Source: an uncultured Eubacterium sp.
GTDB taxonomy: Bacteria > Bacillota > Clostridia > Lachnospirales > Lachnospiraceae
DNA: 64,000 nt
Direction of reading: 5' to 3'
Assembly: GCA_945939115.1 (NCBI GenBank)
Contig: CAMEVC010000003.1
Span: 124,001 to 188,000, forward strand
The notes beneath the pieces are model-generated. The model made no database searches and was not told the DNA's origin. It saw only the letters and a list, made by a program, of their open reading frames with translations. The position numbers and the translations under genes were made by a program. The stretch's first letter is position 1; the number at the start of each line of letters is the position of its first letter. This document shows, piece by piece, positions 49,352 to 62,242 of the stretch.

Positions 49352-49384
49352 ATCCCACCGGTCTCATAACAAAACCGGTGGGAT
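49352..49384 (-). terminator. Hairpin after the cupin gene
   Basis: ATCCCACCGGT and ACCGGTGGGAT form a perfect 11-base stem; on the minus strand TTGTTTG follows. It separates the cupin gene from nfo. Confidence 0.65.
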
Positions 49385-49437: not shown

Positions 49438-49872
49438 TTAATCCTCATTATATTCCATCTGCGCATCTTTTTTAGTTTTATGAACCGTACCGGCCGGGTG
49501 ATGAGGAGGAGCATATACGGTCGATACTCTCATAGGAATCCTTCCTATGTTAACAACATTATGCCACATACCTGATGGAACAAATATAATGTCTCCCCTG
49601 CATACTCTTCTCTGATAATCCATATCATCTCTGCATTCACCCATCTGCACCATTCCAAATCCCTGTTCTATCCTTATTATCTGGTCTGTATCTTCATGAA
49701 TCTCAAGACCTATATCTGAACACACCGGAATGCACATAAGTGTCATCTGTGAATAACATCCTGTCCATATTGTGTTTCTGAAATCTGCATTCTGCATCGA
49801 CATTCTATCAGCATTCATCACATATTGATTATTATTATTTTCTTTTGCGGTATGATAATCTCTATCGTTCAT
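49438..49872 (-). CDS. Cupin-domain protein
   Basis: 144 residues, one cupin barrel. Motif 1 is seen as IGLEIHEDTDQIIRIEQGFGMV and motif 2 as RGDIIFVPSGMWHNVVNIG, supplying His/Glu/His metal ligands. Small cupins of this type bind sugars or metals or act as regulators; nothing more specific can be said. AAAGGTG precedes the ATG. Confidence 0.88.
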   Translation of the reverse strand: MNDRDYHTAKENNNNQYVMNADRMSMQNADFRNTIWTGCYSQMTLMCIPVCSDIGLEIHEDTDQIIRIEQGFGMVQMGECRDDMDYQRRVCRGDIIFVPSGMWHNVVNIGRIPMRVSTVYAPPHHPAGTVHKTKKDAQMEYNED

Positions 49873-49927: not shown

Positions 49928-52705
49928 TCACAATATATTGCGAAGCTTGTTCAGAAGACTTTGATATTGTTCCATGACAGATTTATGATTATCCTTAATA
50001 TAATCCATTTTCTCATCTTTACCTGCAAACTCCAATGCCTTGGCGGACTCCGATAAAGAAACTGCACCTATTGTCAATGATGTACTTTTCAATGCATGCA
50101 CGGCTGTAATATAATTCTTCCAGTCCTGTGCTGCAAAAAGCTGGTCAATTGCTTCTACATTATCTGCCTTTATGTATTCATAAAGCATCTCTTGATATAT
50201 TTCTTCATCCATACAGTATTTTAGTCCTGTCTGTACATCCAGTTCGGGCATTTCCTTCAGGCACTGTAAAACATTCCTGTCTTTGCCAGACTGTGAATCC
50301 ACTGGATTACTATTTACCTGTGCATCAAGCTTACTATGATCTGCATCCGGCTTACTGTATAAATTCACATCAAGATACTTCTTCAGCATAGCCTGTAAAG
50401 ACTCTTCCTTAACAGGCTTTGTAAGGTAATCGGTAAATCCTGCATTAATATATTCCTGTCTGGCACCTCTTGTTGCATTAGCTGTAAGCATAATGACAGG
50501 CGTACTTTTATTTAGATTATCTGACATAATCTTCATCTGCTGCAATGTCTCCAAGCCATCCATCTCAGGCATCATATGATCTAAGAATATTATGTCATAG
50601 TGATTTTTCTTTACACTTTGCAGACATTCCATACCGCTTCTTACTGTATCAATCTGGATGCGTGTCTTTTTAAGAAGGCCTTTTATTACCTTAAGATTAA
50701 TCTCCACATCATCCACAACGAGAATATGTGCATCTGGTGCAACAATGGAATTTTCTTTGCTTTCTGAAATATTAACTGACTGTTGATACCTCTTCTTAAA
50801 ATCTCCTACCGGCTTAGAATCAACTACCTTTTGTGGTATCTTCGCTGTGAATTCAGACCCCTTTCCATATTCACTCTGAACTCCAATTTCTCCTCCCATC
50901 AGGCAGACAAGATTCTGGGTAAGCTTTAATCCAAGACCTGTTCCCTCAATACTCCTGTTTCGCTTCTCCTCAATTCTTGTGAAAGAATTAAAAAGCTTGT
51001 CCATATCTTGCTCACGAATACCGATTCCTGTATCCTTCACTGTAATTATCAATACAATCTGGTTTCCTTCGAATCGTTCGTATCCCACCAAGAGCCTGAC
51101 TTCTCCTTCTTTTGTGTATTTCACAGCATTTGAAAGTAAATTGTTTATAATCTGTCTTATGCGCACATCGTCCCCAACAAGAGTAGATGGCAGTTTTGGG
51201 TCAACATCAATCTTCAAGGAAAGAGATTTGCTCTCTGCTCTTACCTTGGCAATATTAAAACAGTCATTAATAACTGAACTCGGTTTATATTCAACCGGCA
51301 TAATTTCCAGTTTTCCCGCCTCAATTTTAGATATATCCAAAATATCATTGATAATAGACAGCAATGACTGACCAGCGCTTTGTATATTCTCTGCATACTC
51401 TCTTAGGTTATCATCCTTACACTCCTCTAACAGTATTGAATCCATTCCCAGAATTCCATTAAGAGGTGTACGGATTTCATGTGACATATTTGCAAGGAAC
51501 TGGCTTTTTGCTACATTTGCCGCTATGGCATCGTTCTTTGCCTTCTCAACAAATTTCACATGCTCCTTCATCATATTACGCATATAGATAATCAAGGTAC
51601 ATATTGCGAAAATGCATACTCCATACCTGCTGGCTTTTCCTAAATCTCCGACTTTAATTATATAGGACCTCATTACATCAATAAATACACCTATCATCAT
51701 GCATATAATACCGATAAAACTTATAGCTGTCTCAAGACTCTTCTCAATATGTACATTCCTTCCCAATGCGACAACATTTACTATTATTATTAAAACAATA
51801 ATCGCATGTGACACAAACGCCATCTCCATAAAATCCATTATTCCGGCAATCTGTAAAATAAGTTGAACCGCAACATTTACTGAAGAAATCAGCATTACCC
51901 CCAGCATAATATTGCCAATTTTCGGAATTGACTCATAACAATAAGCCTCCAGAAACAGAGGTGCAGTCATCAGAATAATAAATATGAGGTTGGAATACAG
52001 AGTCTGGTTTCCATAAAATACTTCAGGAATCTTTGTTTCTATCATATGGTATACACTCATAAGAAGGAGATATATACCAAGATACTGCACACCACCTATA
52101 TTCTTGTTAGACATTTTCTGTATTATTGCAAGTATTATGAAAATAACAGCGGCAATCAGTATGATAACTGACAGAATAATATCCAGTGCCCTTTCCTTTA
52201 TGAAATTAAGAATTGAAACATCTCTTCTGGCAACAGATATATCTGTTATGTATGTTGCATAGTCAGCATATGGTGAACACATCTCTATCTGTATCTCCCC
52301 CACCTGACATTCACTAGGTATATCTGCAAAAACAAATACACTGCCTGGCGTATTTCCAAATAATCTTTTATCATTTAATCCAAAGCTGTATATCTCTTCC
52401 CCATCTACCATAATTCTCAAAGATTTATCCGCAGACAGGAATCTTATAGTCTTTCCCCAATATTCCTTTGGGATTGTATTTTTTATGACGATTTTCTCCC
52501 CCGGCCGGCTGCTGCTGTTGTAAGGCAGTTCCTCCAGCTCGGTCTGGCTTCCATCTTCCCTTACAAGAACCCAACCTGTGTTAAATGATTGCATTTTCCC
52601 TTTTGCAAGAGTCATGTCATCCACTTTAGAAGTTGTAAGTACAACTGTAATTACGACTAATTGTATAAAAAATACTATCCATATAAATTTATCATACTTC
52701 TTCAT
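49928..52705 (-). CDS. Hybrid histidine kinase: 7TM-DISM sensor, HisKA, HATPase, REC, HPt
   Basis: 925 residues. An N-terminal anchor and an extracellular beta-sandwich (~40-165: IRFLSADKSLRIMVDGEEIYS) precede seven membrane helices (~165-385), the 7TMR-DISM layout. Next come HisKA (FLANMSHEIRTPLNG), HATPase (LLSNAVKYTKEG, KDTGIGI, GTGLGLKLT), a receiver (VVDDVEINLKV, FLDHMMPEMDG, TKPV) and a C-terminal HPt with AVHALKSTSLTIG. It carries a full phosphorelay in one chain. It is the last gene of the BMP/kinase/HD-GYP operon. Confidence 0.93.
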   Translation of the reverse strand: MKKYDKFIWIVFFIQLVVITVVLTTSKVDDMTLAKGKMQSFNTGWVLVREDGSQTELEELPYNSSSRPGEKIVIKNTIPKEYWGKTIRFLSADKSLRIMVDGEEIYSFGLNDKRLFGNTPGSVFVFADIPSECQVGEIQIEMCSPYADYATYITDISVARRDVSILNFIKERALDIILSVIILIAAVIFIILAIIQKMSNKNIGGVQYLGIYLLLMSVYHMIETKIPEVFYGNQTLYSNLIFIILMTAPLFLEAYCYESIPKIGNIMLGVMLISSVNVAVQLILQIAGIMDFMEMAFVSHAIIVLIIIVNVVALGRNVHIEKSLETAISFIGIICMMIGVFIDVMRSYIIKVGDLGKASRYGVCIFAICTLIIYMRNMMKEHVKFVEKAKNDAIAANVAKSQFLANMSHEIRTPLNGILGMDSILLEECKDDNLREYAENIQSAGQSLLSIINDILDISKIEAGKLEIMPVEYKPSSVINDCFNIAKVRAESKSLSLKIDVDPKLPSTLVGDDVRIRQIINNLLSNAVKYTKEGEVRLLVGYERFEGNQIVLIITVKDTGIGIREQDMDKLFNSFTRIEEKRNRSIEGTGLGLKLTQNLVCLMGGEIGVQSEYGKGSEFTAKIPQKVVDSKPVGDFKKRYQQSVNISESKENSIVAPDAHILVVDDVEINLKVIKGLLKKTRIQIDTVRSGMECLQSVKKNHYDIIFLDHMMPEMDGLETLQQMKIMSDNLNKSTPVIMLTANATRGARQEYINAGFTDYLTKPVKEESLQAMLKKYLDVNLYSKPDADHSKLDAQVNSNPVDSQSGKDRNVLQCLKEMPELDVQTGLKYCMDEEIYQEMLYEYIKADNVEAIDQLFAAQDWKNYITAVHALKSTSLTIGAVSLSESAKALEFAGKDEKMDYIKDNHKSVMEQYQSLLNKLRNIL

Positions 52706-52742
52706 TGTATATTATGCCTCTTTTCTCGCTATATGATGACTC

Positions 52743-53774
52743 CTACATACTTCCCAGACTGTTAATAATACCATGTACTGTTTCTTTTACTACAAATGGA
52801 TGTAATGGCTTTGTTAAATAATCATCTATCCCCAGTTCACTTATTTTCTGAATTGTCTCAATACCCTTATCCGCCGTCACAATTACAACAGGTATATCAT
52901 ACTTTTCACGTATCAACTTATATAAGTCGAATCCATCAATATCCGGCATCTTTAAATCCAATAGTATCAGATGAATCTCATTCTCTTCTAATACACGGAA
53001 GGTCTCATCCTTGGTCTTTGCTCCTATCACACAGATATCCGGAACATCCTTTAGAATATGTTCTGCCATCCTTATATTCATTATCTCATCATCAACTACA
53101 AGAACATTCTTCATTGTATTATCTGTCTGTCGCATTGAATAACTGCTGTCCTCATCAATCATCTGCAGCATAATATCTGCAATATCTGCATCAAACTGTT
53201 TCCCTCGTCCCTTTACAATCTCCGAGCGGACAACCTCCTGTGGCAGTGCTTTTCTATAGCTTCGATTACTTGCCATTGCGTCATATGCATCTGCAACGCC
53301 AATAATTCTGGCAATTTCCGGAATATTTTCGCCTTCCAGCCCATTAGGATAGCCTGTACCGTCATACCTTTCATGATGGAACTTAGCTGCGTAAGCAATT
53401 CTGTCATCCTCATGAATGTCTTTTAAAATGTGGTATCCACAGACAGTATGAATTCTAATCTGGTCAAACTCTTCCTCGGTAAGCTTACCCGGCTTGTTGA
53501 TTACCTCTTCCGGAACACGTATTTTCCCGACATCGTGAAGAAGACCTGCATAATATATAATCTTCTGTTCATCCTCGGATTTACCCATCCTCTTGGCAAT
53601 GGCTAATGAATAGTCTGCCACTCTTTGAGAATGGCCGCTTGTATATCGGTCCTTCGCATCAATAGTGTATGCAAGTGCACGGATAATATTGGTATTCATC
53701 TGATTAAGGCGTGTTCTGCTTTCTTCATCATTGCACTGGAAATTGTTGAGCATTTTAGAAATAATATTATTCAT
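52743..53774 (-). CDS. HD-GYP phosphodiesterase with C-terminal receiver domain
   Basis: 343 residues, cytoplasmic. After about 30 residues comes an HD-GYP domain with all motifs (KDRYTSGHSQRVADYS, LLHDVGKIRVP, IHTVCGYH, HHERYDGTGYPNGL, ADAYDAMAS), then a receiver (VLVVDDEIMNIRM, LILLDLKMPDIDG, VTADKG, LTKPLHP). The common order in bacteria is REC then HD-GYP; here it is reversed, as in the C-terminal half of the 1301-aa sensor. It should degrade cyclic di-GMP under control of the neighbouring hybrid kinases. It lies between the two kinase genes, 37 and 80 bases from them. Confidence 0.93.
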   Translation of the reverse strand: MNNIISKMLNNFQCNDEESRTRLNQMNTNIIRALAYTIDAKDRYTSGHSQRVADYSLAIAKRMGKSEDEQKIIYYAGLLHDVGKIRVPEEVINKPGKLTEEEFDQIRIHTVCGYHILKDIHEDDRIAYAAKFHHERYDGTGYPNGLEGENIPEIARIIGVADAYDAMASNRSYRKALPQEVVRSEIVKGRGKQFDADIADIMLQMIDEDSSYSMRQTDNTMKNVLVVDDEIMNIRMAEHILKDVPDICVIGAKTKDETFRVLEENEIHLILLDLKMPDIDGFDLYKLIREKYDIPVVIVTADKGIETIQKISELGIDDYLTKPLHPFVVKETVHGIINSLGSM

Positions 53775-53854
53775 ATGTGTTATCCTTTCGTTACGGTTTC
53801 AACGAGTTCCTCATATCCCATGTCCCAGTATTATCAGTCAATTAGCAACCCGCT

Positions 53855-56365
53855 TTATCCGGTGATAATTGTCTTGGCAGCATCAATAGTATCCTTGTAC
53901 ATATTCATGACACCATCATGGTGTTCTCTGATAAATGTTATATTATCATCAACATTGTCTGATGCCTGAATCGCCTTTCCTGCATATTCCAGCTCCTTTG
54001 CTGCCTCTGAAAGACGTTCTCCTCCAATATTAAGTGAAGTTGATTTTAATCCGTGAACATAAACTGTATAATTCTTCCAATCTTCTGACTTATAGGCTTC
54101 TGTTATATTCGTTAAATGTTCTTCGTAACCGTCACAGTATAGTTGCAGCATTTCCATGTAGAATTCCATACTGCCGGCACAATATTTTATCCCTGTTTCC
54201 TTATTAATAAGTAGTTCCCTGCTTTCCGACATATCTTCACCTTTATCTTTCCTGCCATTATCCTCCTGCATAAGATTTATCTTATCTTGGGATATATATC
54301 TTGACAACATTATTTCTAGTTCTTTTCCCTCAACAGGCTTTGAGAGATAATCTGCAAATCCTGCTTTAATATATTCTTCTTTTGCCCCTGCAATCGCATT
54401 AGCCGTCAATGCAATAACAGGTGTAGCCTGACATTTATTTACGGACTGCCTCATATTGTTAAGAGTCTCTATTCCGTCCATTTCCGGCATCATATGGTCA
54501 AGCAGTATTACATCAAAATACTCTCTTTTCACAATGTTAAGACATTCAGCACCACTCATGCATGTCGTAATCTTCACATTGGTCTTCTTCAGGAGAGCCT
54601 TGACTACTGCCAGATTCATCTCATTGTCATCTACTACAAGAACCTTGGCATCTGGCGCAACAAAGCTTTCCTTGTAAGTATCTTCCTGCTCTGCCATATT
54701 TTCAAACCTTCTCTTAAAGTCTCCCATTGGCTTGCTGTCTTTTATTTCTTGTTTAAGATAAACAGTAAAAACAGACCCCTTTCCATACTCACTGGAAACA
54801 TCCATGCGTCCATCCATCTGTTCAATAAGCTTATGGGTAATTGCTAATCCAAGGCCTGTTCCCTCAATGTTGCGGTTCTGTTCCAGATCCAGTCTCCTGA
54901 AATCATCAAAAAGCTTGTTAAGGTCTTCCTCTCTTATTCCGATTCCACTGTCAGACACCTGCATTTTCAGGGTAAATTCATTGTTTTCTCTTATACCTTC
55001 TACAAGAAACTTTACCATTCCATTTTTCGTGTATTTCACCGCATTATTGAGAATATTAACAATTATCTGACGGTTACGCACTTCATCTCCGCATAATGTG
55101 GATGGAAGTTCCCTGTCAATCTCAACCTGAAAATCAAGCTGTTTCTGCCTTGCCTTAATTTCCGTCATATTCACAACATCATTCAGGAATAATGCAACAT
55201 CATAAGGTGCATTGACAATCTCCATCTTACCTGCTTCTATCTTAGAAAAGTCTAGTATATCATTAATCAGAGATAATAATGTCTTGCTTGCGCTCTGGAT
55301 ACTGACAGCATACTCACGTATATTCTTATCATTGCTCTCTCTAAGCACCATCTCATTCATTCCCATGATGGCATTAATCGGGGTACGGATTTCATGTGAC
55401 ATATTTGCAAGAAAATCACTCTTGGCACGGTTGGCATGCTCTGCTACTTTTTTAGCTTCTCTGAGCTCATCGCTCTCTTTTACTTTCTCTTCCGCACTGA
55501 GCAGATATATCATACCTATTACAAACAGGACTATCATTAATCCAAACACCCATAATATCAGCGTTGTAACAGTTTCAATATCTGTCATCACAACTTCCCT
55601 TGGCACAGTTCCCATAAGGGATATTCCAAGCTGTTTAACTTCCGCAACAAATAAGAAACTTCCTTCATCCCCGTCTTTATAATATACTGCTGCGGCCGTG
55701 TCTATGTTCATCTTCTCTGCCAACTGAGTCAATGCATTTTTTACAGAGGACTTTCCCATAAAATCATTTGTATCCGACTTAGAATCTGAAAAAGGAACTA
55801 CAACCTGACCTGTCTTGTCAATAACAGCTACCTCTGCTTTTCCACCATAACAGGTTAAACCGAAATTATCAACCAGAATGCTCTCATCATAAAGCTTGTA
55901 CAAAGTATACCGTACATTTTCTCCATCATAAATAGGTGTAGTAAAAAGGATTCCTTTTCCCTCTTTATAACACACTGATGAATTACCTCTGAAGGCATTC
56001 TGTATTCCTGAAAAATCCGAGAATTCCAGAGGATTTCCAACAATTGCTGTGCCGTCAAGACACAGTATTCCCATTGTTACATTCTCACTGTCCCGGATGA
56101 CAGAATTAATAATAACTGAATCCTTGTTAACATCAGAAGTTATATTTCCTGCAATGCTTTCCAGATTATGTATCTCCAGTTCAAACTGCTCTGCCGAAAG
56201 CATAGCAAGAGTCTTTGCCTGTTGTGATACCTGCTTCTCCACATAGCTTTGAAGAAGGCTTCTAAGACGGAAGTTCATCAAGATACCAACAACACTCATT
56301 ATCACAATTACAACAGCCAGAAATATGGTTACTCTGCCTTTTCTACTAAGACCTTTACTCTTCAT
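53855..56365 (-). CDS. Hybrid histidine kinase: extracellular sensor (Cache-like), HisKA, HATPase, REC, HPt
   Basis: 836 residues. One membrane helix near the N-terminus, an extracellular domain of about 230 residues (CLDGTAIVGNPLEFSDFSG, GILFTTPIYDGENVRYTLYK; Cache-like), a second helix (TLILWVFGLMIVLFVIGMIYLL), HisKA (FLANMSHEIRTPINA), HATPase (ILNNAVKYTKNG, GTGLGLAIT), receiver (VVDDNEMNLAV, LLDHMMPEMDG) and C-terminal HPt (VHGLKSTSLNIG). Its core is clearly paralogous to the 925-aa kinase. Its start overlaps the end of the upstream BMP gene by 11 bases, which points to a functional link with that binding protein. Confidence 0.93.
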   Translation of the reverse strand: MKSKGLSRKGRVTIFLAVVIVIMSVVGILMNFRLRSLLQSYVEKQVSQQAKTLAMLSAEQFELEIHNLESIAGNITSDVNKDSVIINSVIRDSENVTMGILCLDGTAIVGNPLEFSDFSGIQNAFRGNSSVCYKEGKGILFTTPIYDGENVRYTLYKLYDESILVDNFGLTCYGGKAEVAVIDKTGQVVVPFSDSKSDTNDFMGKSSVKNALTQLAEKMNIDTAAAVYYKDGDEGSFLFVAEVKQLGISLMGTVPREVVMTDIETVTTLILWVFGLMIVLFVIGMIYLLSAEEKVKESDELREAKKVAEHANRAKSDFLANMSHEIRTPINAIMGMNEMVLRESNDKNIREYAVSIQSASKTLLSLINDILDFSKIEAGKMEIVNAPYDVALFLNDVVNMTEIKARQKQLDFQVEIDRELPSTLCGDEVRNRQIIVNILNNAVKYTKNGMVKFLVEGIRENNEFTLKMQVSDSGIGIREEDLNKLFDDFRRLDLEQNRNIEGTGLGLAITHKLIEQMDGRMDVSSEYGKGSVFTVYLKQEIKDSKPMGDFKRRFENMAEQEDTYKESFVAPDAKVLVVDDNEMNLAVVKALLKKTNVKITTCMSGAECLNIVKREYFDVILLDHMMPEMDGIETLNNMRQSVNKCQATPVIALTANAIAGAKEEYIKAGFADYLSKPVEGKELEIMLSRYISQDKINLMQEDNGRKDKGEDMSESRELLINKETGIKYCAGSMEFYMEMLQLYCDGYEEHLTNITEAYKSEDWKNYTVYVHGLKSTSLNIGGERLSEAAKELEYAGKAIQASDNVDDNITFIREHHDGVMNMYKDTIDAAKTIITG

Positions 56366-57455
56366 AAAATTCTACACCCTCAACATACCAGTCAAAATGT
56401 TCCAAAAGTACCTCATCTCGAATAGTCTGATTATCTTTACAGCGAAGTCTGCCCTCGTTGTCATATATGACCCCAGAAAATACATCCTGTCCGCTTAGTA
56501 TTCTCTGTGTAGCCTTACTTACCTCTTCTCTCGTCTTTTCTGTTACAAGCGGTGAAAAGTCTGTCAGTTTTACAGCATTTTCCTCCATACCAACCCAGTG
56601 CACCTTAATATCGGGTGAGTCTCCTCTGAGATACTGTCTGATAATTGCCTCGTATGTTAATTTCCAGTCACACACTACAGCAGTGAGATACTTTTCCGAA
56701 CAGTTCTCCAGACCCTGATGGTATCCGATTGAAAAAATACCATATCTTTCTGCTTCTTCTGCCACATATGTCTGGTTCTGATGATATGTAATAACATCCA
56801 CCCCTGTATTATTAATCAGATTATCTGTCTGTTTTCTCTCTTCTGTCTCATTATCCCATGAATTGCTCCACGCAACTGTCACAACTGCATCAGGATTAAC
56901 CTGTCGTACGCCTAGTGTAAAAGCACTGATTCCCCGGTTGACCTCACTGGTAGGCATAGCAGCAACATAACCTATCTTGTTAGTCTTGGTCTGCATTCCG
57001 GCAACAATTCCTGCCAGATAACGTGCCTGGTACATCCTTGAAAAATATGAAGTCACATTATCTGCATGAAAATTAAAGGAATTCGAATAGAATGACACCT
57101 CCGGGTACTTTGCAATAATATCCGCTGCTTCTTCGGCATAGCCAAAGCTTGTAAGAATAATCATTTTGCATCCCTTTTTTACAAGCTCCTCAATTGCCGG
57201 ACCGCATTCTCCCTGAAATTCTTTAACATTTTCCTTAACAATAAGTTCTGCTCCCAGCTCCTTACATGCAGCAGAAACGCCCTCATAATGTATACCATTC
57301 CAGCCCTTTTCATCCACAGAACCTGTTATGATAAACCCTATCTTCTCTCTCTCCTTATGTGACCTCCCGGCAAATAACAGTGCTGAAATTATCACAGCTG
57401 TCAGAAGTACAATTATTATTAGTAAAAATCCCCTTTTTCTCTTATTCAGAACCAT
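56355..57455 (-). CDS. BMP/PnrA-like extracellular binding protein, N-terminally anchored (second copy)
   Basis: 366 residues. A basic N-terminus and one helix (GFLLIIIVLLTAVIISALLFA) lack a lipobox cysteine, so the protein is probably membrane-tethered without a lipid. The rest is a two-lobed type I binding fold: FIITGSVDEKGWNGIHYEG, MIILTSFGYAEEAADI, NKIGYVAAMPTSEVNRGISAFTLG, DVITYHQNQTYVAEEAE. The BMP family includes nucleoside-binding lipoproteins (PnrA, BmpA). No ABC transporter genes are nearby, so a sensory rather than transport role is inferred. It overlaps both neighbours (14 and 11 bases). Confidence 0.88.
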   Translation of the reverse strand: MVLNKRKRGFLLIIIVLLTAVIISALLFAGRSHKEREKIGFIITGSVDEKGWNGIHYEGVSAACKELGAELIVKENVKEFQGECGPAIEELVKKGCKMIILTSFGYAEEAADIIAKYPEVSFYSNSFNFHADNVTSYFSRMYQARYLAGIVAGMQTKTNKIGYVAAMPTSEVNRGISAFTLGVRQVNPDAVVTVAWSNSWDNETEERKQTDNLINNTGVDVITYHQNQTYVAEEAERYGIFSIGYHQGLENCSEKYLTAVVCDWKLTYEAIIRQYLRGDSPDIKVHWVGMEENAVKLTDFSPLVTEKTREEVSKATQRILSGQDVFSGVIYDNEGRLRCKDNQTIRDEVLLEHFDWYVEGVEFYEE

Positions 57456-58542
57456 CTGTGATTACTCCTTCCACATACCAGAAAAAATTATTAAGCATGG
57501 CTGCATCTGTCATGCTCTGCCCTTCTTTGACGCGCACATTTCCCTCGTTATCTGTAATTGGTCCATAAAACACATCAAAAGTTCCATCCATAAGACGGGA
57601 GCGCGCTTCTTCCACTTTTTCTGCTATTCCCGGCTTCACATTATCTGTTAACGGTGCCAAATCTACTATGTCGGTTTCAACACCTTCCCAATAATAAATA
57701 CCTTCAAACCTTCCCTGAAGGCATTCAAGAATTCTAGGTTCGTAAAAACATTCCCAGTTCCATACCGGTGCAGTCAGATATGTATCCGGAAATCTATCAC
57801 TGTTGTCCAGATTATATCCAATGGACCATATTCCGTACTGGTCAGCAATCTCCAACGGAGATGATGCATCTGTATGCATAGCAATAACATCTATATTATG
57901 CTCCTGTATCAATTCTGTAGTAGCCTCAGCATTCTCTTCTTCCCCAGTCCAGGAATCGCTCCATTTCACATATACCTTTGCCTCAGGATTCACTGAGCGC
58001 ACACCTAAAGTAAACGCATTTATTCCTCTGTTAACCTCGGCAATAGGAAATGATGCAACATATCCAATTTCATTAGTTTCTGTCTGCATTCCGGCTACAA
58101 TACCACTAAGATATCTCATCTGGTATATTCTTCCAAAATATGTGGCAAGATTGTCTAACTGTTCCACTCCTGTGGCATGAAAAAAATATATTTCCGGATG
58201 GTCCTTTGCACATTCCAGTTCCCATGTGCCATAGCCAAATGAATTGCAGATTAAAATCTTGCAGCCATCTTTTATTAACTCCTCCATAACATCTCTGGAA
58301 GAATCATCCTCAGGAACATTTTCCCGGTATATTACATTCAGATTCAATTCCTCTGCGCTTTTTTCCATGCCGATATAATGCGATTCTCCCCAACTGTTGT
58401 CATCTACTGTACCGTTAAGAATAAAGCCTACCTTTGTCTGTGTCTTTGTTATATCCGTTTCCTGCTGATTAATATGAATCCAGAATATTCCCGCAACAAT
58501 AACACAGGCAAAAGTTATTATTATTATTAATATCTTCTTCAT
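57442..58542 (-). CDS. BMP/PnrA-like extracellular binding protein, N-terminally anchored (first copy)
   Basis: 366 residues, the same length and plan as its downstream paralogue: an anchor helix (KILIIIITFACVIVAGIFWI), then FILNGTVDDNSWGESHYIGM, ILICNSFGYGTWELECA, NEIGYVASFPIAEVNRGINAFTLG and IDVIAMHTDASSPLEIAD. The cysteine in the anchor is not in a convincing lipobox (ITFAC). Binding-site residues differ between the two copies, suggesting different ligands. It is first of the five-gene signalling operon, with AGAGGAG before the ATG. Confidence 0.88.
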   Translation of the reverse strand: MKKILIIIITFACVIVAGIFWIHINQQETDITKTQTKVGFILNGTVDDNSWGESHYIGMEKSAEELNLNVIYRENVPEDDSSRDVMEELIKDGCKILICNSFGYGTWELECAKDHPEIYFFHATGVEQLDNLATYFGRIYQMRYLSGIVAGMQTETNEIGYVASFPIAEVNRGINAFTLGVRSVNPEAKVYVKWSDSWTGEEENAEATTELIQEHNIDVIAMHTDASSPLEIADQYGIWSIGYNLDNSDRFPDTYLTAPVWNWECFYEPRILECLQGRFEGIYYWEGVETDIVDLAPLTDNVKPGIAEKVEEARSRLMDGTFDVFYGPITDNEGNVRVKEGQSMTDAAMLNNFFWYVEGVITDGSE

Positions 58543-59771: not shown

Positions 59772-60761
59772 TTAAATGTCTGTAAAAGATGCTTTTACAG
59801 GCTTAAAACCTGCTCTTCCGGCCTCTTCCATAAGTATTGATATATATGAATCATAAAGTGCTTCATCCATAGGATAAACTTCTTTTCCCGTCTCCACATA
59901 TTCCTTCATTCCGAGCATAATCTCTGCTACAGCCGCTTCGCCTCCGGTAAGTCCGGATTTGGCAAATATATTATCCTTCTCCAGTTTCTTAACCGCGCCC
60001 AGATTATTCTCATCCAGATAGTACACAGTGTCATTAATAATCTCACCTCTTGTACCGCGCACATTAATATACCGGTTTCTTATAGGACTGCGATACTGTT
60101 CAGACATGAAATCATAGAAGGCTACCTTTCCATCTGCATATTCCATGACAAGGTGCTTCTCCTCTTTATCTACAATTCTGCCATCGGTCAGAGTCTCATA
60201 TCTTGTCTTAGTGTTAGCCACTCTCACTGAAAATGCTTTGCCTGTAATTATCACATCACTTAACCCGGTTTTTAACACCCTTCTTATGACACTTGCAGCA
60301 TGATAATCATGCATTGCAGACATTGTGACAGACACAGGTTCTCCGATAGTTCCCCTGTTAATCTCATCAATCATTGCCTTAATGCCCGGCTCCATAAAAT
60401 ACTGTTCTGCGACCTGAATCTTAAGCCCTTCCTTAATCTCCTGCTTCATAATACCAAGTGTATCAAGGTCAAGTGCCGCAGGAGTCTCAGAGAGAACCGG
60501 GATTCCCTTCTTTGCCCAGTATCTCACCACATCGCTCATACTCGTCTTATTAACTGCACTCACAATAAAATCCGGATTAAGACTTATAACTTCATCTTCG
60601 CTCATGGTCGTATGCAGCCCGTATTCCCTCTGCAACCGCAACATTTTCTCCTCGCTTCTGCAAAGCCATGCCACCATCTCAAACTGTTCGGGAAGAGCCT
60701 TTGCAATGCGTGCATAGAACTCACTTCTCCATCCCGAACCAACCACTGCAAATCTAATCAT
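59772..60761 (-). CDS. Gfo/Idh/MocA-family oxidoreductase (smaller)
   Basis: 329 residues. Rossmann start FAVVGSGWRSEFYARIA. The usual EKP motif is replaced by LSETPAAL, so the lysine that polarises the substrate is missing, which hints at an altered or lost catalytic role. The C-terminal domain is present (VSVTMSAMHDYHAASVIRRVL). The gene overlaps the upstream membrane-protein gene by 8 bases, tying it to the DUF5058 unit. Confidence 0.87.
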   Translation of the reverse strand: MIRFAVVGSGWRSEFYARIAKALPEQFEMVAWLCRSEEKMLRLQREYGLHTTMSEDEVISLNPDFIVSAVNKTSMSDVVRYWAKKGIPVLSETPAALDLDTLGIMKQEIKEGLKIQVAEQYFMEPGIKAMIDEINRGTIGEPVSVTMSAMHDYHAASVIRRVLKTGLSDVIITGKAFSVRVANTKTRYETLTDGRIVDKEEKHLVMEYADGKVAFYDFMSEQYRSPIRNRYINVRGTRGEIINDTVYYLDENNLGAVKKLEKDNIFAKSGLTGGEAAVAEIMLGMKEYVETGKEVYPMDEALYDSYISILMEEAGRAGFKPVKASFTDI

Positions 60762-61506
60762 TTTTCTTTTCCTTATCTACTACTTTAATAAACCCCTTCT
60801 TCCACATAATCCATGATGAAAGAATTGCTATAGGAAGCATTATGATAATTATAAAGCCTACAGCACCAAATAAAGAACCGCCACTTGAAATTCTTACTAG
60901 AAGTGCGAGAAGTGCAACTATTACTATTACAGGAATCACTCCCATTATACCATTCTTAACAACCTTCTTGCCTGTGTTAGTGCTTGCGAAAAGTCCAAGT
61001 GTCAATGAACCAAACAATGCAGGAATCAGATAACCTGAAGCTGTCTTAACAGCAGGAAGCTCAAATACAGGGCTAATCCATGCACTCAGCAGTGCAGCCA
61101 GTGCTAAAACAATTATTGTCATTATTGAACAAACTGCAACAGCAACTGAAGCTATAGCCTCTCCTGCCGGTGTATTAGGCTCTTTCTTTGTTAAATTCAT
61201 AGCATTTACAGCACAGGGAACTTTAAGATTCATAATATTTCCTGTTATAAATGTAAGATAAGATGCTGAACCAAGTATCGGTGTATATGTAATTGCTTCT
61301 GAGAATCCAACCGGGATATATATCAGGAGTATTCCAAATGTTGCAACATTAAATACCATACCTAATGTAGGCATGCAGCCGTATACCCCAAGTACTATGA
61401 ATGGAAGTGCTATCATATATGCCAGGGCAATCACTGTGCCAACTCTTCCCCATCTGTGGCACCATGCCTGAAAAGAATCTATCTCGTTATTATTCTTCTT
61501 ACTCAT
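60754..61506 (-). CDS. Multi-pass membrane protein partnered with DUF5058
   Basis: 250 residues with about six helices, for example VGTVIALAYMIALPFIVLGVYG and MPTLGMVFNVATFGILLIYIPVG, and a conserved-looking ITGNIMNLKVPCAVNAMNLT loop. It has a hydrophilic start and a basic tail. ATG at 61506 (GAGGAG upstream) is preferred over the tracked start. It lies 13 bases after the DUF5058 gene. I infer that the two form one transporter or channel for the product or substrate of the M20 enzyme. Confidence 0.7.
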   Translation of the reverse strand: MSKKNNNEIDSFQAWCHRWGRVGTVIALAYMIALPFIVLGVYGCMPTLGMVFNVATFGILLIYIPVGFSEAITYTPILGSASYLTFITGNIMNLKVPCAVNAMNLTKKEPNTPAGEAIASVAVAVCSIMTIIVLALAALLSAWISPVFELPAVKTASGYLIPALFGSLTLGLFASTNTGKKVVKNGIMGVIPVIVIVALLALLVRISSGGSLFGAVGFIIIIMLPIAILSSWIMWKKGFIKVVDKEKKND

Positions 61507-61519
61507 ACTTTTCTCCTCT

Positions 61520-62242
61520 CTAGCCAAACAGCTTAACCCATAAAAGTGACGATGCCATACCGGCTATCATAGAGAATGCCATTATGAATTCTCCAAGCCA
61601 GCGAAGCTTTGGATTCTTTGCAAATATTCCAAGTGCCACAGCTACAACAAGTCCTGTGAGCATTACACAGGCCTGAACAGTATCTCCGATAAGAAGAACC
61701 GGAATATATACAGCAAACATGCAGAGCATAAACACACCACTAAACACATGCTTCCAGTCACTTGAGTTCTCTGTCTTAGTAACACTCATTGAAAGCTTCT
61801 TGCCGAAAGGAATAAGAATAAGGAAACCACTTAACATTCCTATACTCATAAGAATCATTACAACACCAAACTGCTGTCCCGTTGCTCCTGATAACATCTC
61901 AACTGATGAATCAAATCCAAGCGCTGTGGCAACACTTCCTGATATCAGAGTTTCATATGATAATGAACCTATTACTGAAAGTCTCCACCATGACCATACT
62001 GTTCCAAGTGCAGAAATCAACACAAATAAACCTACAACTATAGATAAACTTGGTACAATCGAGAATACGCAGCTCGATTTAATTACCTTCTTAATCTCCT
62101 CTTTGGTAATACCAAGTTCCAAACACCTTTTACATGCTTTCTTAAGATACACAAGTGAAAATCCCACTATGTACAGTAGCCCGATTACTACCAGAATAAG
62201 TAAAAGCGGGCTCTTGATAATATCACTCATCATAACTTCCAT
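61520..62242 (-). CDS. DUF5058 family membrane protein
   Basis: 240 residues with six or seven helices. The segment ITKEEIKKVIKSSCVFSIVPSLSIVVGL and the LSVIGSLSYETLISG region match the DUF5058 pattern as I recall it. The function is unknown; members are found beside amidohydrolases in Clostridia and are probably transport proteins. AGGAGG lies eight bases before the ATG. It is 27 bases after the M20 gene. Confidence 0.75.
   Translation of the reverse strand: MEVMMSDIIKSPLLLILVVIGLLYIVGFSLVYLKKACKRCLELGITKEEIKKVIKSSCVFSIVPSLSIVVGLFVLISALGTVWSWWRLSVIGSLSYETLISGSVATALGFDSSVEMLSGATGQQFGVVMILMSIGMLSGFLILIPFGKKLSMSVTKTENSSDWKHVFSGVFMLCMFAVYIPVLLIGDTVQACVMLTGLVVAVALGIFAKNPKLRWLGEFIMAFSMIAGMASSLLWVKLFG

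Follow-up and report, generated by a model that had tools for sequence, protein, structure and literature searches.

The rarity of kinases that depend on a separate binding protein may reflect the difficulty of finding them (PMC6321045). We describe here a candidate sensor of this kind in a 64,000-nucleotide stretch of DNA from an uncultured Eubacterium sp. of the Lachnospiraceae (GenBank assembly GCA_945939115.1, contig CAMEVC010000003.1, positions 124,001 to 188,000; hereafter the window, in whose own numbering positions are given), where genes for two PnrA/BMP-type binding proteins (BMP1 and BMP2) precede those for a hybrid histidine kinase (HK1), an HD-GYP protein with a receiver (REC) domain and a second hybrid kinase (HK2). 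By analogy with described systems, the BMP proteins and HK1 are best read as a putative three-component system of the LuxPQ/XylFII-LytS kind that would sense purine-like bases. The kind, a binding-protein-dependent kinase, is known, and what is new is its Bmp-family, importer-free, tandem-binding-protein form, often wired to cyclic di-GMP (c-di-GMP). No description of BMP-kinase modules was found in the open-access literature.

The nearest precedent, and one within the same protein family, appears to be Med-KinD of Bacillus subtilis. The med and kinD genes are, we presume, unlinked in that species. KinD depends on Med, a lipoprotein of the PnrA family (Banse 2011, J Bacteriol, as cited in PMC11210211), and the likeness is that a dCache sensor kinase needs an extracellular PnrA/BMP-family protein attached to the membrane. 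Med, however, is described as a lipoprotein, and the purine contacts discussed below are missing from it, whereas the window encodes two anchored BMPs whose genes are coupled in translation to that of a hybrid REC-HPt kinase, itself accompanied by c-di-GMP partners. In clostridia, XylFII-LytS-YesN and CuaD-CuaS-CuaR also have a binding protein gene beside a kinase gene, and the binding protein acts as ligand sensor (PMC6321045, PMC10384115); XylFII contacts a helical domain of LytS (PMC9769921). These systems differ from ours in binding protein family, sensor domain and output, and they switch transporter genes. The output of LuxPQ is a phosphorelay. LuxP and TorT join the extracellular domains of their hybrid kinases, LuxQ and TorS, in both apo and holo states (PMC6321045), although they are periplasmic, belong to other families and act as single binding proteins, whereas the window encodes a tandem pair with near-identical pockets.

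Two further comparisons concern the ligand. AtzT and the Brucella protein 3s99 are the closest solved structures and have the same base contacts, but they are thought to serve uptake (for AtzT, PMC6834077), whereas the BMPs of the window are anchored by transmembrane (TM) helices and linked to a kinase. The dCache_1PU sensors (Monteagudo-Cascales 2024, PMC11245519) resemble the window system in that purine sensing is wired to kinases and c-di-GMP enzymes; in those sensors the dCache domain itself binds the purine, whereas here the purine-type pocket is in separate proteins. According to a review, only one family of the periplasmic binding protein (PBP) clan has been studied in c-di-GMP networks (PMC8846402).

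The conserved BMP1-BMP2-HK1 core

Five open reading frames, all on the minus strand, occupy positions 58542 to 49928 (Table 1), and their positions and Pfam matches confirm the co-directional genes and domains given in the preliminary description of this locus: HisKA-HATPase_c-Response_reg-Hpt in both HK1 and HK2, and HD_5/HD with Response_reg in the HD-GYP protein. The catalytic and phospho-acceptor motifs SHEIRTP, LDHMMP, HGLKST/HALKST, HDVGK and HHERYDGTGYP were found. BMP1 and BMP2 overlap by 14 nt and BMP2 and HK1 by 11 nt, while gaps of 80 nt and 37 nt separate HK1 from the HD-GYP gene and the latter from HK2. No ATP-binding cassette (ABC) gene lies inside the operon, again as described.

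When 85,462 species' genomes were scanned with a BMP1 alignment and the best 80 loci were taken (mostly from gut Lachnospiraceae and Oscillospiraceae), 77 had a BMP1 frame. BMP2 came next after BMP1 in 68 of these and HK1 followed BMP1 directly in 7 more; an HK1-type kinase was next in 72/77, the exceptions being five loci where the contig ends or the BMP1 frame is broken. The frames overlapped at the BMP1/BMP2 junction in 68/68 loci and at the BMP2/HK1 junction in 64/65, counts that may be too high, since every frame was taken mechanically to begin at its first start codon. In an independent family search of 150 genomes, BMP1-BMP2-HK1 turned up in eight further genera, and a ninth genome had BMP1-HK1 and BMP2-HK1 as split pairs; the full trio also occurs at four loci of a separate family (f39) of the same phylum, Bacillota. 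The conserved unit is therefore BMP1-BMP2-HK1, in about 80 sampled species, with HD-GYP and HK2 as variable attachments, and a conserved five-gene operon is rejected, only the first three genes being kept. Of the synteny earlier proposed, BMP-BMP-HK-HD-GYP-HK free of ABC genes, the BMP-BMP-HK part stands and a fixed HD-GYP and HK2 do not; the gene order that matters to the idea, BMP-BMP-kinase, is conserved. No natural BMP-kinase fusion was found among the matches listed, in which the longest BMP frame (about 700 aa) is of a cytoplasmic type treated below. Three module-bearing contigs (L114, L149 and L152) are titled as Fibrobacter sp. metagenome-assembled genomes, a matter of horizontal transfer or misbinning.

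The preliminary description had also assigned the two binding proteins to the two kinases. HK2 is sparse, however, being present in only a few relatives and missing from most loci, so that a two-BMP/two-kinase pairing is rejected and the core has two BMPs for one kinase. Nor does the picture of one BMP per kinase hold, in view of the 7 loci in which BMP1 alone precedes the kinase and the one genome with split BMP-HK pairs. HK2 is an accessory kinase; it has about 7 hydrophobic segments, and the extracellular domain at its N terminus (about 140 aa) has no Pfam match.

With a binding protein gene conserved beside a kinase gene, BMP1 and BMP2 are probably dedicated ligand subunits of HK1 that sense a probable purine and relay this to receiver partners and c-di-GMP; the central idea, from binding proteins through a kinase to c-di-GMP, is thereby supported by comparative genomics. 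Tethered at the outer face of the membrane, and not as parts of an importer, both BMPs would close on a small molecule, for which purine nucleobases or close analogues are the best guess. Its presence would be passed, through BMP-HK1 binding and in a direction of control that we infer, to the dCache-fold sensor of HK1, shifting the flux of a His-Asp-His phosphorelay within HK1 that would end on receiver-bearing partners. In the window this partner would be the neighbouring soluble HD-GYP-REC phosphodiesterase, in which case the ligand should alter c-di-GMP, and HK2, with its different multi-pass sensor, may feed the same HD-GYP receiver.

Membrane anchors, pockets and the importer question

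Both proteins belong to the PnrA/BMP family (Pfam Bmp, PF02608: 155 bits for BMP1 and 171.5 bits for BMP2 against a gathering cut-off of 24.1). Each has a single strong N-terminal hydrophobic helix, at about residues 4-22 in BMP1 and 10-28 in BMP2, and neither has a lipobox, in agreement with the membrane anchors first described. Nearly all of 80 BMP1 and 74 BMP2 proteins share the strong N-terminal helix, and a lipobox was seen in 0/80 BMP1 and 0/74 BMP2 (0/154 kinase-linked proteins) as against 28/30 ABC-linked BMPs. In a maximum-likelihood tree BMP1 and BMP2 together form one clade (support 100/100), within which BMP1 (100/98) and BMP2 (100/99) are each single, and every importer-linked and chemoreceptor-linked Bmp falls outside it. 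The nearest outside sequences (about 40–46% identity) carry a lipobox and adjoin ATPase-permease-permease genes. These relationships suggest that one importer binding protein was duplicated, exchanged its lipid for a TM anchor and was recruited to a kinase a single time, a capture that would predate the divergence of the sampled families unless there was later horizontal transfer between them.

PnrA/BMP proteins are the classic binding proteins of ABC importers, and relatives at 37–46% identity do adjoin importer genes, so the two BMPs might be thought to serve an orphan importer encoded elsewhere, with the kinase merely co-regulated. The genome of the window (2.46 Mb, 97% complete, 48 contigs) encodes five PF02608 proteins, but it gave zero matches to PF02653, the permease family that adjoins every ABC-linked BMP examined with long flanks and that the same search detected in 12/14 control genomes and 15/16 relatives. 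No BMP-type ABC genes adjoin the core at any of the 80 loci, and the other three Bmp loci of the genome (on contigs C21, C19 and C31) are not importers, so that neither of the findings that would have spoken for uptake, orthologues sitting with ABC genes or a bmp-ABC locus at some other place in the genome, was made. Given also that a TM anchor replaces the lipobox in every kinase-linked BMP and that these proteins form a dedicated clade, the importer reading is rejected, and an orphan importer is very improbable and already strongly disfavoured.

The closest solved structures to BMP1 are the Brucella BMP 3s99 (1.6e-70) and AtzT 6pi5 (6.3e-68); Med 2hqb matches at 1e-36, and PnrA/TmpC 2fqw reaches only 4.8e-10. 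In AtzT, guanine is contacted by Tyr45, Ser97, Glu165, Trp194, Asn218 and Asn220 (PMC6834077); at these positions BMP1 has W, S, E, W, H and D and BMP2 has W, S, E, W, H and N, so that both carry what is typical of the AtzT/3s99 purine-base subgroup (an aromatic residue at 45, Ser97, Glu165, Trp194 and polar residues at 218 and 220) and their pockets differ at one contact, Asp220 against Asn220. BMP1 agrees with 3s99, which was modelled with adenine, at 9/9 positions compared. By their residues, BMP1 and BMP2 look like two base-binding proteins differing at one contact, and purine binding by both is a plausible expectation. While the membership of the BMP family suggested earlier is upheld, the ligand pocket belongs to the purine-base type (AtzT/3s99) and not to the nucleoside-binding PnrA type; a PnrA-like nucleoside ligand is disfavoured by the rank of 2fqw far below 3s99, a comparison by structure-match ranking and not by nucleoside-site residues.

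The same sensor could nonetheless respond to a non-purine ligand, such as another aromatic heterocycle, a nucleoside or a quorum-type metabolite. AtzT binds triazines too (PMC6834077), and the Asp/Asn difference at position 220, in a comparison limited to six contacts, would allow for it. Against this, the six contact residues are nearly invariant in 75 BMP1 and 69 BMP2 proteins (144 in all), a conservation that is not trivial because the contacts have been lost in Med (2hqb) and in the cytoplasmic Bmp of contig C31, and BMP1 matches adenine-bound 3s99. We regard a non-purine ligand as possible but doubtful.

The HK1 sensor and the proposed c-di-GMP output

The extracellular domain of HK1 was modelled with AlphaFold2 on 50 sequences (predicted local distance difference test score, pLDDT, 93.2; predicted template modelling score, pTM, 0.86). 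The best PDB matches of the model were dCache kinases and chemoreceptors (E 8e-10, template modelling (TM) score about 0.6), and the predicted structure has the long helix and two PAS-like modules of a dCache domain, although the domain has no Pfam Cache match. A dCache_1PU-like motif, Y..[RK]..W[FY]..F.[DN], was present in 0/74 HK1 sensors with this approximate pattern, made from residues named in PMC11245519, and on the same approximate basis the HK1 dCache domain is rejected as the purine sensor. Over 57 complete loci, pairwise distances of the HK1 sensor correlated more closely with those of BMP1 (r 0.84) and BMP2 (r 0.80) than with those of its own kinase core (r 0.65), with bootstrap intervals of the differences that exclude zero (0.08–0.31 for BMP1 and 0.03–0.30 for BMP2). 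The correlations fit contact between the BMPs and the sensor and are suggestive of it.

It may be asked whether the BMPs inform HK1 at all, or whether they serve as scaffolds or accessories that stabilise HK1, as Med may do for KinD, while the kinase's dCache domain binds the signal directly. Many dCache domains are direct ligand binders, the family precedent Med is without purine contacts, and KinD answers other signals via its Cache domain (PMC11210211). A pure scaffold would not need the intact base pockets that both BMPs possess, however, and the lack of a Pfam Cache match and of the dCache_1PU-like motif in the HK1 sensors also speaks against direct binding, so that we consider a scaffold role distinctly unlikely.

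The HD-GYP protein contains the HD and HHExxDGxGYP motifs (HDVGK and HHERYDGTGYP) and no TM segment, and is predicted to be a receiver-controlled c-di-GMP phosphodiesterase. A close orthologue (L075:13732-15657) has an additional N-terminal dCache_1 domain and TM segment, and the short, soluble form in the window apparently reflects loss of the protein's own sensor in this lineage. With 16 GGDEF matches in the genome, c-di-GMP signalling is live in this organism. Across the loci, GGDEF, HD-GYP or EAL genes made up 46/238 genes no more than two positions from the core compared with 4/332 genes at a distance of at least four positions (Fisher p 8e-15, an optimistic value as the loci are related), and 45 of the 46 encoded proteins have a receiver domain, which bears out statistically the link to c-di-GMP that had been proposed. 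A c-di-GMP gene is in the apparent operon at 37/65 scorable loci, in varied architectures (HD-GYP-REC, REC-HD-GYP, REC-GGDEF, HK-REC-HPt-REC-HD-GYP and others), and the kinase tree needs at least 11 gains or losses of such a gene, or 23 counting type changes. At L110 (11175-16703) one frame of 1842 aa is a fusion of HK1 to an HK-REC-HPt-REC-HD-GYP protein, and at L107 and L111 the same two proteins are encoded by adjacent genes; at other loci, standalone or tandem receivers without an output domain follow the core. c-di-GMP is thus a common, not universal, output of the core, and several outputs are interchangeable, HD-GYP being one of them.

For the window itself, the BMP-HK1 sensor may be real and its output something other than c-di-GMP, the HD-GYP-REC protein obeying mainly HK2 or other kinases while HK1 phosphorylates an unlinked regulator. 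The HK2 gene stands directly after HD-GYP, the close relatives L076, L080, L083, L084, L086 and L087 have no HD-GYP beside the core, and standalone or tandem receivers take its place elsewhere. The core's repeated and strong association with c-di-GMP proteins that bear receivers, through those gains and losses, and the L110 fusion, argue the other way, and we judge such an output somewhat unlikely.

Three observations weigh against HK1 as a BMP-dependent purine sensor with a c-di-GMP output. Importer-linked Bmps of the same subfamily have most of the pocket residues too, and the residues therefore indicate a purine-type pocket and not purine as the signal. Shared descent accounts for part of the distance correlations, which could also stem from shuffled kinase cores. 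Finally, 28/65 scored loci have no c-di-GMP gene, several of the nearest relatives of the window included.

Transcript layout and other Bmp loci

The transcript probably extends beyond HK2 and ends with a cupin gene, because a strong terminator-like hairpin lies 3' of that gene and none of strength comparable to that at 49384-49352 was found between the five genes by pattern match. Pattern matching gave 9 terminator-like hairpins in the region against a shuffle mean of 4.4, and an Rfam search of the window returned zero matches. Just upstream of the operon (60754-62242) two adjacent small membrane proteins are encoded, one with a DUF5058 match and one without a Pfam match; the pair adjoins an amidohydrolase-like gene and two Gfo/Idh/MocA-like genes and is possibly a separate uptake and catabolism unit.

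Table 1. Features of the BMP-HK1 locus in window coordinates; aa, amino acids
Feature	Position	Strand	Description
BMP1	57442..58542	minus	366 aa, PnrA/BMP-type binding protein; Pfam Bmp 2.8e-45
BMP2	56355..57455	minus	366 aa, second BMP-type binding protein; Pfam Bmp 2.7e-50
HK1	53855..56365	minus	836 aa, hybrid histidine kinase (Pfam); order TM - extracellular dCache-fold sensor (predicted) - TM - HisKA - HATPase - REC - HPt
HD-GYP-REC protein	52743..53774	minus	343 aa; Pfam HD_5 1.3e-35, Response_reg 1.5e-21
HK2	49928..52705	minus	925 aa, hybrid kinase, HisKA-HATPase-REC-HPt (Pfam)
Cupin protein	49438..49872	minus	144 aa, 55 nt past HK2; Pfam Cupin_2 2.3e-8
Terminator-like hairpin	49352..49384	minus	15-pair stem downstream of cupin gene; pattern match only

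The three remaining Bmp loci of the genome are of other kinds. On contig C21 (L006:6606-10858, minus strand) a Bmp lipoprotein gene is flanked by genes for a GAF-GGDEF protein and an sCache_3 chemoreceptor, and adjacency of Bmp to sCache methyl-accepting chemotaxis protein (MCP) genes is seen again in at least 7 further genera (L020, L022-L025, L053 and L054), which suggests Bmp-assisted chemotaxis; in the tree these chemoreceptor-linked Bmps nest within importer-linked ones. On contig C19 (L007:126-4893, plus strand) the gene for a 1190-aa receptor with an N-terminal TM region, a Reg_prop beta-propeller and an HD-GYP domain overlaps a Bmp gene whose product retains the purine-type pocket. The third, on contig C31 (L008:7838-10400, minus strand), encodes a cytoplasmic 641-aa protein in which a 290-aa N-terminal domain without a Pfam match is joined to a Bmp domain lacking the purine contacts; the gene adjoins a calcineurin-like phosphoesterase gene, and forms of this type of about 650 aa occur in dozens of family members.

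A joint reading, which we think rather unlikely as a whole, is that of a dual-channel extracellular purine detector together with repeated capture of BMPs from importers for signalling. If true, BMP1 (Asp220) and BMP2 (Asn220) would differ in the purine bases that they detect and would act, in competition or cooperation, on a single dCache hybrid kinase, so that the cell would gauge the ratio of two purines and set c-di-GMP to match; the captures in these bacteria would extend to kinases, chemoreceptors and possibly the propeller-HD-GYP receptor.

The switch from lipobox to TM anchor offers a simple genomic marker of sensing as opposed to importing BMPs, and it matters because automatic annotation would label all BMPs as ABC substrate-binding proteins. 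The core described here represents a large, conserved family without ABC genes, for which purine bases are our guess at the ligand and c-di-GMP at the output, in gut bacteria with few known signals. The module would let these bacteria read a small molecule outside the cell, probably a purine, and apparently often convert it to c-di-GMP.

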